From Acidimicrobiia bacterium (GTDB lineage: Bacteria; Acidobacteriota; Vicinamibacteria; Vicinamibacterales; CAVVIG01): a stretch of 64,000 bases of DNA. How positions within the stretch are numbered: position 1 is the stretch's first letter; the number at the start of each line of letters is the position of its first letter. Below the pieces are notes generated by a model. That model did no database searches. It saw only the letters and a list, made by a program, of their open reading frames with translations, and was not told the DNA's origin. Both the position numbers and the translations under genes were made by a program. Positions 53,326-62,040 of the stretch are shown piece after piece. The DNA lies in the NCBI GenBank assembly GCA_016871175.1, contig VFZL01000002.1:62001-126000 (forward strand), in the 5' to 3' direction.

Positions 53326-55046
53326 ATGGTCATGGACGTGCGCGCGTGGGTCGCTGCGTGGTTCGCGTTAGCCTTAATCGCGCCAGCGCCTCAGCCACCA
53401 GCCCCAGCGCCAGCCGCCGATCTCGTCTTTCGCGGTGGAATCGTCTATACCGCCGATCCCGCTCGCCCCACTGCGCGCGCGGTCGCCGTGAAGGACGGCC
53501 GCATCGTGTACGTGGGGGACGAGACCGGTGTCCAACCGTTCATTGGTCGGTCGACACGCCTCATGGGGATCGCCGGCGACATGTTGCTGCCCGGCCTTCA
53601 CGACGCGTACGTGCATCTCGCCCCGGGGGGATCCGACTGATCGAGTGTGATCTGTCCAAGAACGATTCCACGCAGGCCGTGCTCGCCCACATCACCCGTT
53701 GCGCCCACGAGCGGCCCAAGGCTGCCTGGATCGCCGGAGGGGGATGGCAGCCGTCGGCCTTTTCCGACGGTCCGCGGACCCGTGTGCAACTGGACGCGGT
53801 CGTCAAGGATCGACCGGCGTTCTTCGCGTCCGCCGATGGACGTGCGCTCTGGGCGAACAGCCGAGCGCTCGACGCCGCCGGCATTGCGGCAGCCACGCCG
53901 GATCCGCCTGGCGGTCGCATCGAGCGAGACCCCCTGACGCGCGAGCCCACGGGTCTGCTCCGCGATCTGGCGGGAGCGCTCATACGACGCGCAGCGCCTC
54001 GCCCGACGCAGCAGGACTATGAGGAAGCGATTCGCCGAGCCCTCACGGTCGCGAATTCATTCGGAATCACGTCCGTGCATGACGCGATGACGGACGAGGA
54101 CGCCATCCCGGCTTTTCTGGCTCTCGACCGACGGAGCGCGCTGACGGCGCGTGTGACCGCGGCCGCCGCGCTCAGCCCGACGGTCCAGCTGGGGCAGGAC
54201 GTGCCTGGCGAGGTCGCGCGCCTCGAGCGCCTACGAGCGGACGCGCTGGGGACGCGTTTTCGTATCGTCGGGACCAAGGTTGGCGTCGACGGGGCGCTCG
54301 AGGGAAGGACGGCTGCTCTGCTGGAGCCCTACGTTGGGACCACAGATCGAGGGCCGACGCTCGTGTCGCCCGAGGTGCTTCAAGCGCTCGTTGTCGCGCT
54401 GGATCGTGCGAGGCTGTCCGTCCACGTGCACGCAATCGGCGATCGCGCCACGCGGATATCGCTCGATGCCATCGCCGCGGCGCGAGCCCGGAACGGCCCC
54501 GATGGCCCGACCCATCAGATCGCCCATCTTCCACTGGTGCGCCCGGCCGACATCCTGAGATTTCCCTCCCTCTGCGTAGCCGCCAACGTCCAGGGGCTCT
54601 GGGCCCATCGCGATCCGCAGACCGAGATGGTGATCGAGCCAAGTCTGGGACCGGAACGCGCTCGCCGCCTGTATGCGCTGGGGAGCTTGGCGCGCGCCGG
54701 TGCGCTGATCGTGGCGGGAAGCGACTGCTTATTCGCGTCGATGAACCCCTTCGAGGCGATTCAGGTCGCGCTGACACGACGTGGTCCGTCAGCCGCCGCC
54801 GGACCGGCGTGGTTACCCGACGAAGTGCTGACGCTCGACGCCATGCTTGCCGCGTACACGATCAACGGAGCACGCATCCAGCTGCAGGACGATCACGTCG
54901 GGTCGATCACTGTGGGGAAGGCAGCCGATCTGGTGGTCGTCGACCGAGACTTGACAGCCATCCCAGCAGCAGGCATCGCCGCCGCGCGCGTGCGCTTCAC
55001 GTTCATCGAAGGCCGCCAGGTCCACCCCATCGTCGGAAACCGCTAG
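53326..55046 (+). pseudogene. Amidohydrolase (YtcJ-like), frameshifted at a G6 run
   Basis: The first frame carries a signal peptide and DLVFRGGIVYTADPARPTAR, then DMLLPGLHDAYVHLAPGG and a stop at 53638. One missing base in the G run at 53625-53630 would join it to RLIECDLSKND, AWIAGGGWQPSAF, VGVDGALEGRTAALLEPYVG, LSVHVHAIGDRATRISLD, IVAGSDCLFASMNPFEAIQV and ADLVVVDRDL to TAG at 55044. The restored 573-residue protein is an exported YtcJ/AMPD-like amidohydrolase. The first metal motif, normally HxH, reads YVH, so one ligand is changed too. Confidence 0.85.
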
Positions 55047-55183: not shown

Positions 55184-57679
55184 TCAAGGCGCGGTGGGTC
55201 TGCCCGCGGGCTCAATCCGTAGCAGCGCTGTCTCGCCTCCGCTCTCGCCGTCCGCATCGTCCTCGACCAGGAGGTAGATCAATCCATCGGCGCCCTGGCG
55301 CACGTCACGCACGCGCTTCGCGAGCTCCGTGAGGAGCGACTCGCGGCGGATCTCCTCGCCTCGGCTGTTGAAGACGACGCGATCCAGCCGACCGGTGCGT
55401 GAAATGCGTCCGCGTTGCAGGCCGCCGACGAACATGTTCCCTTTCCACGCAGAGAAGCGCTCACCGGTGTAGAACATGATGCCGGTGATCCCGATCGATG
55501 GCACCCAGATCACCTGGGGCGGTTCGAAGCCGTCCTGCCACGGGCGCGTCGAGGTCGGCACGCCGTCGTAGTCGCGTCCGTAACTGACGACCGGCCAGCC
55601 GTAGTTGCGCCCAGGCAGAATGAGATTGACCTCATCACCGCCCTGGCGTCCGTGCTCGGTCGACCAGACCGCGCCGGTGACCGGATGCACGGTCAGCCCG
55701 ACCTGGCTGCGATGACCCAGCGAGTAAATTTCCGGCTTGTATCCAGGCTTGTTCACGAATGGATTGTCCGCAGGCACCTTCCCATCGTCGTGCAGGCGGA
55801 GGATCTTGCCACCGTACTCAGAAGGATCCTGGGCGCGCATATCGTCCGCGGTCGTCGTGATGTAGAGCATGCCGTCGTGCCCGAACGCCAGGCGGGTGGC
55901 GGCCGTGGACCGCGGCGACGCGACGAAGATCTCCTCGATGTTCGAGAGTGCATGACCGTCGAATCGTCCACGGCTCACGGCAAGCGTCGCGCGACTGTCA
56001 GCGGCCGGCTTCATGTAACTGAGATAGATGAGTCGATTCTCAGCGAACTTCGGATGGAGGACGACGTCCATCAGGCCCCACATGCTGAGCACTTGCACGG
56101 GGGGTACACCGGCGATCGGCTGTGGGTCGAGCTTTCCTTGATGAATCAGACGCAGTCGTCCAGCGCGTTCCGTGACCAGGATGTCACCGTCGGGCAAAAG
56201 CGCGAAGCTCCACGGATGTGCGAAGCCCTTCGCCACGGTCGTCACGCGGATCCGCTCGTACTCCGCGGTGTCGTACGTACTCGGCGCGTCCGCGAGCGCG
56301 ACGCGATCCACGCCCATCGCGCCAGCCGGCCCTGGGTTGCGACGCGGCACGGCAGGAGCGCCACCTTCCGCAGCGCGCGCTACGACGGCCACGGAGCCGG
56401 CAGCGGGCTCGATGCGTAACACAGCGCCTTCACCATCCTCGCCGGTCATCTCGTCCTCAGCCGCCAGGTAGAGGAATCCGTCGGGTCCCTGCTTGACGTC
56501 GCGGACGCGCTTCTTCAACTCGGTGAGCAGCGCCTCGCGCCGCATCTCCTCGCCGCGCCCGTTGAACACGACGCGCTCGAGCAGTCCGGTGCGATTGACT
56601 TCGCCAGTCCGCATGCCGCCCACGAATACGTTGCCCTTCCACGCGGGAAACCGATCGCCCGTATAGAAGACGATGCCGGAGGCGGCGATTGAGGGGCTCC
56701 AGAAGACCAGCGGTTGCTCCATGGACGCGCGCCACTGCACTGGGGTCACCCACGGACCTGGATACGTGCGGCCGTAGCTGACGACGGGCCAGCCGTAGTT
56801 CTTCCCAGCGGCGAGCACGTTGATCTCGTCGCCGCCGTTCGGTCCGTTCTCGGTCGTCCAGATCGCCCCGCTCTCTGGATGGACCGCAATTCCCACGTTG
56901 CTGCGATGACCGAGCGTGAAGACCTCAGGGCGATGCCCCGGTCGTCCGACGAACGGATTGTCGGGTGGCACCGTCCCGTCGTCTCGAAGCCGGAGGACCT
57001 TGCCGGCGATGTCGTTCGGATCCTGTGCGCGGTTGCGACCGGCACCTTGGATGGTCATGTAGATCATCCCGTCGCGCCCGAAGACGATGCGCGTCGTGCC
57101 GCTGGCATTGGGTTGCGCGACGAAGATGTCCTGAACGTCGTAAAGAGACGATCCCTCGAGACGTCCTCTCGCAAGCGCGGCGGTCGAGACCTTCTCGCCA
57201 ACAGGCGCCGAGTAGGTGAGGTATACGAGCTTGTTCTGTGCGAACTGCGGATGCACGGCCACGTCCATCAAGCCGAACAGCCCCACCGCGTGAACCGCCG
57301 GCACACCGCTCACAGGCGTGGGATCGAGCTTGCCATCCCTGACGATCCGCAATCGACCCGGACGCTCGGCCACGAGCAGACGCCCATCAGGCAGGAACGC
57401 CAGGCTCCACGGATGGACCAACCCCTTCGCCACCGTGACGACGCGGATCGCCGAGTGCTCAGCAGTCGGAAGCGTCGCTGGCATGTCGGAGAGTGGACGA
57501 CGAGGCACGCCGAGTTGCCGACAGGTCGGGTCAAGCGCGCCGCCGGAACACGGACGATTTGCGGCGGTGGTCGTCGACGGAGGCTGTTGGCCGACGATGA
57601 CGCCGGCATTCGAGAGTGCTGCCAGGAACACGAGGGTACGTGGCCCGACTTCTCGAACAGCTGACAACGGCAACCTCAT
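55184..57679 (-). CDS. Two-propeller PQQ-dependent sugar dehydrogenase (sGDH/YliI type duplicated in one chain)
   Basis: 831 residues from the ATG at 57679 with a signal peptide. Two complete soluble-glucose-dehydrogenase-type six-bladed propellers follow one another without a stop. The first has VTVAKGLVHPWSLAFLPDGR, RIVFGRDGMIYMTI, VFTLGHRSNVGIAVHPESGA and GGDEINVLAAGKNYGWPVVS. The second has VTTVAKGFAHPWSFALLPDG, RLAFGHDGMLYITTT, YSLGHRSQVGLTVHPVTGA and GGDEVNLILPGRNYGWPVVS. HPxSGxxW, PQQ-site LGHRS and calcium-site motifs are kept in both halves. It probably oxidises aldoses in the periplasm. The gene is divergent from haem-propeller copy 2. Confidence 0.87.
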   Translation of the reverse strand: MRLPLSAVREVGPRTLVFLAALSNAGVIVGQQPPSTTTAANRPCSGGALDPTCRQLGVPRRPLSDMPATLPTAEHSAIRVVTVAKGLVHPWSLAFLPDGRLLVAERPGRLRIVRDGKLDPTPVSGVPAVHAVGLFGLMDVAVHPQFAQNKLVYLTYSAPVGEKVSTAALARGRLEGSSLYDVQDIFVAQPNASGTTRIVFGRDGMIYMTIQGAGRNRAQDPNDIAGKVLRLRDDGTVPPDNPFVGRPGHRPEVFTLGHRSNVGIAVHPESGAIWTTENGPNGGDEINVLAAGKNYGWPVVSYGRTYPGPWVTPVQWRASMEQPLVFWSPSIAASGIVFYTGDRFPAWKGNVFVGGMRTGEVNRTGLLERVVFNGRGEEMRREALLTELKKRVRDVKQGPDGFLYLAAEDEMTGEDGEGAVLRIEPAAGSVAVVARAAEGGAPAVPRRNPGPAGAMGVDRVALADAPSTYDTAEYERIRVTTVAKGFAHPWSFALLPDGDILVTERAGRLRLIHQGKLDPQPIAGVPPVQVLSMWGLMDVVLHPKFAENRLIYLSYMKPAADSRATLAVSRGRFDGHALSNIEEIFVASPRSTAATRLAFGHDGMLYITTTADDMRAQDPSEYGGKILRLHDDGKVPADNPFVNKPGYKPEIYSLGHRSQVGLTVHPVTGAVWSTEHGRQGGDEVNLILPGRNYGWPVVSYGRDYDGVPTSTRPWQDGFEPPQVIWVPSIGITGIMFYTGERFSAWKGNMFVGGLQRGRISRTGRLDRVVFNSRGEEIRRESLLTELAKRVRDVRQGADGLIYLLVEDDADGESGGETALLRIEPAGRPTAP

Positions 57680-57982: not shown

Positions 57983-60154
57983 ATGTCCCGCGCACGTCGT
58001 TTTCTTGGAGTGCTCGTCGTCGCGTGTGTTGCCCCGACGGCCATGTGGCTGACCGGACCCACGGTCCGCGCGGGGAGTGACGACATCGCGGGCACGGTCC
58101 GAGGACCGCAGGGGCCTGAGGCTGGCGTCTGGGTCATCGCCGAGACGACGAATCTGCCCAGCAAGCTGACCAAGATCGTCGTCACCGACGCCGGCGGGAA
58201 GTATGTACTGCCGGACCTGCCGTCGGCGGGCTATGACGTGTGGGTGCGCGGCTACGGCCTCGCTGACTCCGAGAAGAAGCGGGCGAAGCCCGGCGACACC
58301 CTCGCATTCACCGTGAAACAACCCGCCAGCCCACAGGAGGCCGCGTCGATTTACCCGTCCAACTACTGGTACTCGCTTCTACAGATTCCCGAGGCGGGCG
58401 AGTTCCCCGGGACCGGGCAGGGCGGCAATGGCATCGCCCCGGGTATGCGGACGCAGGCGCACTGGATCGATCGATTGAAGGATGGCTGCGAGCTGTGTCA
58501 TCAGATGGGCAACAAGGCGACCCGCGAGATGCCGATGCTCGACCTCGGGAAGTTCCCGTCGGCCAAGGATGCGTGGGAGCTGCGGATCAACGCAGGCACC
58601 AGCGGTCCGCTGATGATGAGCGCCTTGAATCGCCTCGGCCCGAAGCGCGCAATCGACATGTACGCCGGTTGGTCTGACCTGATCAAGGGCGGCGCGCTTC
58701 CGCTCGCACCACCTCGCCCCCAAGGCAAGGAGCGGAACGTGGTGATCACGATGTGGAATTGGGGCAACCCTCGGACCGTGGTTCACGACGAGATCGTCAC
58801 CGACAAGCGAAATCCGACCCTGTATGCGAATGGCCCGGTCTACGGCCTCGGCGGAAGTGCCTTCGTCGTCTTGGATCCCAAGACGCACACGAGCAAGATG
58901 ATCGACATGAAGACGCGCGTGCCGATGCGGTTCGAGGGCGATTCGTATCAGTCGGCGAACGCCCAAGTGCCATCACTGTATTGGGGACACGAGCGTGCGC
59001 CGGGTACGCCGGTCAGTGGACACAACCCGATGATGGACGACAAGGGGCGGGTGTGGATCACGCAGGTCGTACGTCCGGGCGCCGCCAATCCTGACTGGTG
59101 CAAAGAGGGATCGACGCACGCCTCCGCGACGTACTTCCCGATTCCTCAGAACGCGATTCGCCGGCAGCTCTCCTACTTCGACTCCAAGAGCGGGTCGTTC
59201 GAGCTCATCGACACCTGCTACGGCACGCACCATCTGCAGTTCGGAAGAGACGACACGCTGTGGTTGAGTGGCGACAGCAACGTGATCGGCTGGCTCGACA
59301 CGAAGCAGTACGACAAGACCAAAGACGAGCGTGCGTCGCAAGCCTGGTGCCCGACGGTCATCGACACCAACGGGGACGGCAAGATCACCAAGCCGTGGAA
59401 CGAGCCGAACGCGACGACGATCGATCCCACCAAGGACACGCGGATCGCCAGCTTCAACTACGGGATCATTCCGAATCCGAAGGATGGATCGGTGTGGGTC
59501 GGCAAACCTGGGCCGATGCCCGGGAGCCTCGTGCGTCTGGAGCTGGGCAGCAATCCGCCCGAGACCTGCCGGACCGAGGTGTTCGAGCCGCCGTTCCAGA
59601 ACGCGGCCGTGGATCAGAAGCAGTGGGGATTTGGTCCGCGTGGCATCGACATCGACACGAGCGGACTCATCTGGACCGCGCTCGGCGGGAGCGGTCACAT
59701 TGCGAGCTTCGACCGCAGCAAGTGCAAGGTCCTGAACGGTCCGAAGGCCACCGGCCAGCACTGTCCGCAAGGCTGGACGTTGTATCCGACGCCTGGCCCG
59801 AGCTTCCGCGGTGTCTCAGGCGCGATCACCACCGATTTCCACTATTACAATTGGGTCGATCAGTTCAACACGCTGGGGCTGGGTGAAAACATCCCGATCG
59901 CGAACGGCACCGGATCGGACTCGCTCATCGCGCTCGATCCGAAGACGCGCGAGATGATCACGATGCGCGTACCGTATCCGCTCGGCTTCTACACGCGTGG
60001 CCTCGATGGCCGCATCGACGATCCGAAGGCGGGGTGGAAGGGCCGCGGCGTGTGGGCGAGTTACGACTCGTTCAACTGGCACAACGAGGGCGGGAGGGGC
60101 ACGCTCGGCGCTGCGGTGCGATTCCAGATGCGACCGAATCCGCTCGCCGAGTAG
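57983..60154 (+). CDS. Exported haem-binding propeller protein with regulatory-like domain (copy 2)
   Basis: 723 residues. It matches copy 1 at 34003 over its length: signal peptide, beta-sandwich (IAGTVRGPQGPEAGVWVIAE, GKYVLPDLPSAGYDVWVRGY), YPSNYWYSLLQIPEAGEFPG, CELCH haem site (residues 169-173), RNPTLYANGPVYGLGG, NPMMDDKGRVWITQVV, DTNGDGKITKPWNE from residue 461, FGPRGIDIDTSGLIWTALGG and VPYPLGFYTRGLDGRIDDPK. One haem and a lyase-like propeller suggest an electron-transfer or sensing role with the neighbouring dehydrogenases, but this is unproven. Confidence 0.82.
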   Translation: MSRARRFLGVLVVACVAPTAMWLTGPTVRAGSDDIAGTVRGPQGPEAGVWVIAETTNLPSKLTKIVVTDAGGKYVLPDLPSAGYDVWVRGYGLADSEKKRAKPGDTLAFTVKQPASPQEAASIYPSNYWYSLLQIPEAGEFPGTGQGGNGIAPGMRTQAHWIDRLKDGCELCHQMGNKATREMPMLDLGKFPSAKDAWELRINAGTSGPLMMSALNRLGPKRAIDMYAGWSDLIKGGALPLAPPRPQGKERNVVITMWNWGNPRTVVHDEIVTDKRNPTLYANGPVYGLGGSAFVVLDPKTHTSKMIDMKTRVPMRFEGDSYQSANAQVPSLYWGHERAPGTPVSGHNPMMDDKGRVWITQVVRPGAANPDWCKEGSTHASATYFPIPQNAIRRQLSYFDSKSGSFELIDTCYGTHHLQFGRDDTLWLSGDSNVIGWLDTKQYDKTKDERASQAWCPTVIDTNGDGKITKPWNEPNATTIDPTKDTRIASFNYGIIPNPKDGSVWVGKPGPMPGSLVRLELGSNPPETCRTEVFEPPFQNAAVDQKQWGFGPRGIDIDTSGLIWTALGGSGHIASFDRSKCKVLNGPKATGQHCPQGWTLYPTPGPSFRGVSGAITTDFHYYNWVDQFNTLGLGENIPIANGTGSDSLIALDPKTREMITMRVPYPLGFYTRGLDGRIDDPKAGWKGRGVWASYDSFNWHNEGGRGTLGAAVRFQMRPNPLAE

Positions 60155-60747: not shown

Positions 60748-62040
60748 CTACTTTCCGACAGGCTCCAGCTTCAGAAGGGCCCCGTGGTTCTCATCGGTCA
60801 GCAAGTAGATGAGACCATCGGGGCTCTGCCTGATGTCGCGGATGCGCTGCTTGAGATCGGTGAGCATGGACTCACGCGCGACCGGCTGTCCTTTCGGGTT
60901 CAGTACGATGCGCTGAAACACCATCCCGCGCATACCGCCGACGAAGAGGTTCCCTTTCCAACTCTCGAACTTCTCGCCCGTGTAGAACAGGAAGCCTGAC
61001 GGGGCAATCGAAGGAACCCAGAAGAGAAACGGCGATTCCATGCCCGGCGCGCCGTGCTCCGGCGTGAGCGGACCTGAGGTGTCGCCGGTCAGGTCGCCGC
61101 TGTAGGCACGGCCGTACGAGACCACCGGCCAGCCGTAGTTCTTGCCAGCTCTGATGATGTTGATCTCGTCGCCACCCATCGGTCCGTTCTCGTGCTCCCA
61201 GAGCTCCCCCGTCTGTGGATGCACGAAGAGGCCCAGGCTGTTGCGAATGCCAAGCGCATAGATCTCCGGCTTGTAGCCCTCCCGTCCGACGAACGGATTG
61301 TCGGCTGGCACGCTCCCGTCATCGTTCAAGCGAAGGATCTTGCCCGCGTGATTGGAGGGATTCTGCGAGTCTTCGGGCTGCGCCGTGCCGGGGCGATTCA
61401 ACCGGATCGGGACGCCGATCGCGAGGTAGAGCGTTCGGCCGTCGCGGTCGAAGGCAATGCGCGCGGCCGACGGCGTCGCACACCACGCATCCGAGACGAA
61501 GACGTCCTTCACATCAGTCAGGGAGGCGCCGCCGTCCCAGCGGGCGCGGCCGAGCACGGCCGTGGCGACATCCTTCTCTCCGGGCTTCAGCTTGTAATAG
61601 GTGAAGTAGATCAGACGGTTTTCGGAGAACCGCGGGTGGAGCGCGATGTCCTGAAGCCCTTTGAGCCGCGTGTCGAGCACGTCGGGTATGCCGGCAATGG
61701 GCTTTGGATCGAGAACACCATTACGGACGACGCGCAGGCGACCGGCGCGCTCGGTCACGAGAATACTGCCATCGGGGACAAACGCCATTGAGAAAGGTCG
61801 GCTGAGCCCCTTGATCGGCGTCACTTTGAACGTGTGGCCGATGCTCGTCACCGGAGGCACCGAGTCCGGCATGCGATCGACATCGGTTGGCTGCGGCTGT
61901 GCACCCAGTTCGCGTCCTGGCTGTGGGGCGGCCGTCGCAGGCGATCCCGCCTGCTGGGCGAGGCTCACGCCGGCAGTAGAGCCGCACGCCAGCATCACCA
62001 GTGAGAGCGTCAACGTCACCTTTCGCCAGTCATCGACCAT
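60748..62040 (-). CDS. PQQ-dependent sugar dehydrogenase (sGDH/YliI type, single propeller)
   Basis: 430 residues from the ATG at 62040 (AAGGTGAGG upstream). The signal peptide ends near VSLAQQ. Family motifs are GLSRPFSMAFVPDGSILVTE, LHPRFSENRLIYFTYYKLKP, RIAFDRDGRTLYLAI, YALGIRNSLGLFVHPQTGEL and GGDEINIIRAGKNYGWPVVS. The HR of the PQQ-site LGHRS in other members is LGIRN here. It is a periplasmic aldose or related dehydrogenase, a divergent cousin of the two halves of the gene at 55184. A TAGAATC element lies 69 bases upstream. Confidence 0.88.
   Translation of the reverse strand: MVDDWRKVTLTLSLVMLACGSTAGVSLAQQAGSPATAAPQPGRELGAQPQPTDVDRMPDSVPPVTSIGHTFKVTPIKGLSRPFSMAFVPDGSILVTERAGRLRVVRNGVLDPKPIAGIPDVLDTRLKGLQDIALHPRFSENRLIYFTYYKLKPGEKDVATAVLGRARWDGGASLTDVKDVFVSDAWCATPSAARIAFDRDGRTLYLAIGVPIRLNRPGTAQPEDSQNPSNHAGKILRLNDDGSVPADNPFVGREGYKPEIYALGIRNSLGLFVHPQTGELWEHENGPMGGDEINIIRAGKNYGWPVVSYGRAYSGDLTGDTSGPLTPEHGAPGMESPFLFWVPSIAPSGFLFYTGEKFESWKGNLFVGGMRGMVFQRIVLNPKGQPVARESMLTDLKQRIRDIRQSPDGLIYLLTDENHGALLKLEPVGK

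Follow-up and report, generated by a model that had tools for sequence, protein, structure and literature searches.

Does a reading frame that matches a sugar dehydrogenase domain twice encode a double sugar dehydrogenase? The question is raised by a gene on the minus strand of the window (the whole stretch of 64,000 nucleotides analysed here), whose product, P0001, had been described in an earlier note as one polypeptide with two propellers, two sets of cofactor motifs and a single signal peptide, and hence as a tandem enzyme with two active sites or as a chain with one catalytic and one structural half. The explanation that we consider best, at a probability of roughly 0.55, is that two non-canonical propellers of the GSDH type (PF07995) were fused in frame in this lineage; they would bind a ligand or a quinone and carry out an altered chemistry.

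One frame with two propeller domains

The 831 codons of the gene form a single uninterrupted frame, from an ATG at position 57679 to a stop ending at 55184. The mechanically called open reading frame begins further upstream, at 58321; the ATG at 57679 is preceded by GGAG and followed by a signal-peptide-like stretch, both read from the sequence by eye, and on the strength of this start P0001 is probably exported. Its match to PF07995 (E-value 4.8e-218, 723.4 bits, curated cut-off 25) falls into two stretches, placed by the whole-genome scan at 118450-119418 and 117247-118224 of contig C2, i.e. at 56450-57418 and 55247-56224 of the window. Against the NCBIfam model TIGR03606 (glucose/sorbosone PQQ dehydrogenase) it scores 206 bits, under the curated cut-off of 434.55. 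The two halves share 57% identity (213 of 372 columns) and 67% as DNA. The earlier description of one chain with two propellers behind one signal-peptide-like start is thus borne out by the frame and its two PF07995 stretches. The linker, put at about 45 residues, has this length from strand to strand; some 17 of these residues make up the pre-propeller segment of half 2, which leaves about 29 for the linker proper (Table 1).

Structural models of the halves, built separately with AlphaFold2 from alignments of 66 rows, reached a mean pLDDT of 88.6 and a pTM of 0.86 for half 1, and 92.0 and 0.91 for half 2, with pLDDT falling to low values on the linker side of each model, where half 1 ends and half 2 begins. 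Foldseek ranks 7CDY and 2G8S as their best matches, at 0.91-0.92 in TM-score when scaled by target length (0.91 for either half against 7CDY), and both models have the six-bladed propeller fold of the soluble glucose/aldose sugar dehydrogenase group. Given these matches, each half is, as modelled, a complete propeller, and not a propeller plus a remnant, which is the outcome of the structure prediction that the earlier note had proposed, made here on the halves apart.

A mis-assembled or decaying gene, with no real double protein behind it, could also give such a frame. The double frame occurs in only one genome among the matches listed, and the reading frame of the amidohydrolase gene next to it is broken, which leaves room for sequence errors or gene decay in this region. 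Against this, the longest run of identical DNA between the halves is 14 bases, and confusion of the halves by an assembler, with collapse at the junction, is therefore unlikely. Moreover, the frame stays open over 831 codons with a coding-type base composition in both halves, and both keep most of the conserved positions: at 71 columns that are at least 95% conserved in the other rows, half 1 deviates twice and half 2 five times (for comparison, 119 rows have a median of 0 deviations, and counts of 5 to 7 occur elsewhere among the rows). Between the halves, dN is 0.39 and dS, which is near saturation, 1.29 over 398 codons, a difference that points to purifying selection. Taken together, these observations make an artefact highly improbable.

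The amidohydrolase gene (PF07969) lies at 53326-55046 on the plus strand, and its start is in a different frame from the remainder, with the break near position 53,630; this is either a sequence error or the mark of a decaying gene. On the other side of the double gene, the divergent plus-strand gene of P0003 (57983-60154) encodes a possible heme protein, which begins with a signal-peptide-like stretch and contains a CxxCH motif; its only match, carboxypeptidase-regulatory, is under the cut-off. No open reading frame similar to P0003 or to the amidohydrolase was found in the compared loci besides those of the window itself. Since the flanking sequence of many of these loci extends over only 1.5 kb, an electron-transfer partner is neither claimed nor excluded.

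Table 1. Features of the double gene, with a paralogue and the related fusion loci (positions are those of the window unless locus names are given)
Feature	Position or loci	Strand	Basis
Gene of the 831-residue double-GSDH protein P0001	55184..57679	-	frame and PF07995
Signal-peptide-like N terminus, residues 1-31	57587..57679	-	by eye from sequence
Half 1 conserved pre-propeller segment, residues 56-77	57449..57514	-	start of half-to-half alignment
Predicted propeller 1, residues 78-427	56399..57448	-	PF07995, AlphaFold2, Foldseek
Half 1 Ser193, at the His144 place	57101..57103	-	sequence alignment
Half 1 Arg259, Arg228 equivalent, kept	56903..56905	-	sequence alignment
Linker, residues 428-456, without a stop and without a second signal peptide	56312..56398	-	sequence; low pLDDT flanking
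Half 2 conserved pre-propeller segment, residues 457-473	56261..56311	-	half-to-half alignment
Predicted propeller 2, residues 474-826	55202..56260	-	PF07995, AlphaFold2, Foldseek
Half 2 Thr592, at the His144 place	55904..55906	-	sequence alignment
Half 2 Arg657, Arg228 equivalent, kept	55709..55711	-	sequence alignment
Single-domain paralogue P0002, 430 residues, also without the His	60748..62040	-	sequence comparison, PF07995
GSDH-CMD-CMD loci, family f14	L160-L173, L177-L189, L191, L193

Active-site residues and cofactor supply

In the soluble glucose dehydrogenase of Acinetobacter, His144 is described as the best candidate base, aided by calcium and Arg228, with Asn229 adjacent (PMC6881810, in excerpt), while Gln76 is counted among the substrate residues and Arg408 is located at the PQQ site (PMC6881789, in excerpt). 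The numbering was checked by aligning the family profile to the Acinetobacter chain, and positions 76, 144, 228, 229, 406 and 408 fall on scored columns. In the same enzyme, Arg406 is likewise a PQQ-site arginine, Arg228 and Asn229 form a pair at the PQQ ketones, and the loop that contains Gly247 is the calcium loop.

Both halves of P0001 keep the equivalents of Arg228 (Table 1) and of Arg406/Arg408 (Arg391/393 and Arg789/791), together with the calcium-loop Gly247, after which Pro is replaced by Arg in half 2. The place of the catalytic His144, which was assigned from the sequence alignment and lies in a loop whose length varies, is taken by a serine in half 1 and a threonine in half 2; that of Gln76 is occupied by Leu134 and Met533, and that of Asn229 by Ser260 and Ser658. 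Among the 12 residues that precede the conserved Arg, both halves are free of histidine. The two sets of cofactor motifs reported earlier therefore hold for the arginines and the calcium-loop glycine, and fail for the equivalents of His144, Gln76 and Asn229. Since both halves lack the same residues, neither looks canonically catalytic, and a tandem enzyme with two active sites is not supported. The division into one catalytic and one structural half fares no better: neither half is clearly degenerate by the conserved-column count given above, and no clear split of this kind is apparent between them. As the key catalytic histidine is absent from both, the label ‘double sugar dehydrogenase’ is not justified for P0001.

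The E. coli protein YliI/Asd (2G8S), for which an absorption shift with PQQ and calcium is reported (PMC13088180, in excerpt), and the glucose dehydrogenase 7CDY/7CGZ, presumably from P. aeruginosa, are six-bladed propellers of the PF07995 type, with 34-41% identity in structural alignments and TM-scores of 0.90-0.92 by target, and they share with the halves of P0001 the arginines of the cofactor site and the Gly of the calcium loop; they are, however, single propellers with equivalents of His144 and Gln76, whereas P0001 has two propellers and lacks both residues. The Acinetobacter enzyme (1C9U/1CQ1) belongs to the same fold superfamily, and its Arg228, Arg406 and Arg408 are kept, but identity is only 21-24%, and His144, Gln76 and Asn229 are not kept in either half. 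We know of no double propeller among the fungal AA12 pyranose dehydrogenases, to which identity is limited to 13-15%. These enzymes likewise form a family of six-bladed PQQ propellers, in which the histidine is not strictly conserved and is missing from more than 25% of the sequences (PMC6881810, in excerpt).

The AA12 figure suggests that loss of the histidine alone need not end the use of PQQ, and P0001 might on this ground still be a PQQ-dependent aldose sugar dehydrogenase of the canonical type, both of whose sites work within one chain. Its PF07995 domains, its nearest solved structures, which are glucose/aldose sugar dehydrogenases, and the retention of Arg228, Arg406, Arg408 and the calcium-loop Gly in both halves would agree with such an enzyme. 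The equivalents of His144, Gln76 and Asn229 that both halves lack are, however, kept in two sequences from the same order (L207 and L227), and PqqC was not found in the genome, so that a canonical enzyme is improbable.

The search for pqqC works in this order, where 19 of 162 genomes were over the cut-off (positive control); it gave no match in the source genome and none in 14 control genomes. A search for PqqE returned five matches, all under the cut-off. Some PQQ users take PQQ from outside, and the missing PqqC therefore lowers the likelihood that P0001 uses PQQ without excluding it; the ligand may be something else. Co-occurrence with pqqC was considered as a marker (pqqC over the cut-off in 17 of the 71 strongly matching genomes versus 2 of the 91 others) and was not used as evidence, because kinship confounds it: a single family, f14, accounts for 14 of these 17 genomes.

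A clade without the catalytic histidine

A tree of 92 rows, built with a quick method, places both halves in a clade of 74 rows (SH-aLRT 97), none of which has a histidine at the His144 place; the missing His and Gln are a property of the clade and not of the fusion. The next larger clade (77 rows, SH-aLRT 99) adds one further row without the histidine, L004, and the sequences L207 and L227, in which alone the histidine is present at this place. These two are sister sequences from the same order and keep the full canonical residue set. Over the whole tree, the state of the histidine changes at least four times. Its loss looks old and shared, and would not have followed the fusion. In six rows of the clade, a histidine lies 8 to 12 residues ahead of the conserved Arg at a place other than that of His144, and in these six a histidine from elsewhere in the loop might serve.

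A wider set of 154 rows, collected by similarity to P0001, contains 136 without the His/Gln-or-Glu pair, including two distant planctomycete rows in which the His is present and another residue stands at the Gln76 place. Arg228 is kept in all 136; Arg406 is found in 124 of 129 rows and Arg408 in 123 of 129, with 4 gaps. A count of histidine-less sequences among 122 core rows was discarded as circular, the rows having been picked for lacking the His/Gln-or-Glu pair, and was replaced by the tree count. The clade of the halves, which is rich in Acidobacteriota, seems to have lost the catalytic His and the substrate Gln while keeping the cofactor arginines and most of the calcium loop.

Such a pattern also bears on a non-catalytic pair of ligand-binding propellers, with a fold like that of Hedgehog-interacting protein, serving for binding or scaffolding. 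The absence of His from the catalytic place across the clade would be expected of such a pair, the predicted half models resemble Hedgehog-interacting protein with TM-scores of 0.53-0.69, and duplication might raise avidity. The near invariance of the cofactor-site arginines and the calcium-loop Gly in the clade goes, however, beyond what a scaffold would seem to need, and the clade has been fused repeatedly to enzyme-like domains. A purely binding function is for these reasons rather unlikely.

The fusions are of several kinds. In the sister family f14, 29 loci in 22 of 28 genomes encode a histidine-less GSDH domain that continues into a tail some 385 residues long, which is itself duplicated (36% identity between the tail halves) and matched PF02627 (carboxymuconolactone-decarboxylase-like, CMD) in 7 of 7 tailed proteins scanned. 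These GSDH-CMD-CMD proteins (for example those of L163, L165 and L177) resemble P0001 as single-chain fusions from the same histidine-less clade; their partner is a duplicated CMD-like tail, whereas that of P0001 is a second GSDH domain. Proteins of about 800 residues in the sister family were considered as further double GSDH proteins, and those examined turned out to be GSDH with the duplicated CMD-like tail and, once, RidA with GSDH. The latter arrangement is seen at L199 (G130:C68), where three Ribonuc_L-PSP (RidA-type) domains precede a GSDH domain in a single frame. With GSDH-CMD-CMD at 29 loci and the RidA-GSDH fusion, the clade fuses readily, and the double propeller is one case among several. 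It is conceivable, if doubtful, that this large clade of exported propellers abandoned the His mechanism for another base or substrate and uses its fusions (GSDH-GSDH, GSDH-CMD-CMD and triple RidA-GSDH) as modules, for instance by oxidation to a lactone followed by processing of the lactone in the same chain.

In the source genome, which is 96.8% complete at 4.44 Mb in 85 contigs, PF07995 is matched 16 times, in part by fragments of one gene, and five places match P0001 at E ≤ 1e-30, the double gene counted. Besides P0002 (Table 1), the contig of the double gene carries a fourth GSDH paralogue, the L004 of the tree, at 134159-135442 of contig C2 (L123, 8159-9442), about 10 kb past the third; it is long-branched and also lacks the catalytic His. 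Elsewhere, a GSDH-like gene occurs on a public MAG contig titled Klebsiella pneumoniae (L118); it is one of a set of weak matches that are otherwise mostly planctomycetal and verrucomicrobial, and the title may be wrong.

Rarity and origin of the double gene

The search of other genomes for the double architecture, also proposed in the earlier note, covered 27 genomes of the family (all candidates scored), 162 of the order (up to 6 candidates each), 193 of the class (up to 5 each) and a phylum sample of 396 (up to 2 each), in overlapping sets and with E-value limits from 1e-30 to 1e-140. Among the matches listed for these sets, only the source genome has one that spans both halves. A check of the open reading frames in loci L001-L230, including 73 loci from a scan of named genomes, found two full domains in one frame only in copies of the P0001 gene. 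In the open-licence literature, no paper among the matches listed deals with a protein of two GSDH domains or with the joining of GSDH to CMD.

Unfused neighbouring pairs are found in relatives. At G014:C212 and at G151:C69, two such genes adjoin in the same frame, and between them lie a stop and another start that resembles a signal peptide; at G130:C104 the neighbouring genes share a frame that is interrupted by more than one stop, and at G152:C63 the two genes are in different frames. In P0001, the conserved segment with which the mature half 2 starts follows immediately on the linker.

The relationship of the halves to each other was examined in three trees. They are sisters in the careful tree (support 63/96) and in the second quick tree of 92 rows (88), and were not joined in an earlier quick tree. 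A serine at the Asn229 place is found only in both halves and in L130 among the 154 rows. Half 1 is closer to a sequence from genome G020 (65% identity) than to half 2 (57%); the latter sequence, however, is cut off by the edge of its contig and may come from a double gene too. The proximity of half 1 to the G020 sequence and the unjoined halves of the one quick tree would fit a fusion between paralogues of older date, which is the less favoured route. Duplication followed by fusion is the favoured route, although it is not proven.

The in-frame fusion that we prefer would have started from two neighbouring copies of a gene for a secreted six-bladed propeller of the GSDH type. Once the first copy had lost its stop codon and the second its signal peptide, the product would have been a single exported chain of two complete propellers joined by a flexible linker of about 29 residues, in effect a covalent pseudo-dimer. 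Each chain would carry two comparable sites, which most likely bind PQQ, or a ligand like it, and have an altered chemistry.

The passage from a tandem gene pair to a single two-domain chain would be a clean case of its kind, since relatives still show the two genes before fusion. The histidine-less clade is nevertheless a more useful lead than the double protein. Its members match the glucose/sorbosone dehydrogenase domain strongly, yet without the catalytic residue, and the annotation that they would probably receive automatically is corrected by this finding. If the clade has another chemistry, its fusions to decarboxylase-like and RidA domains would be a direct hint as to what should be assayed.
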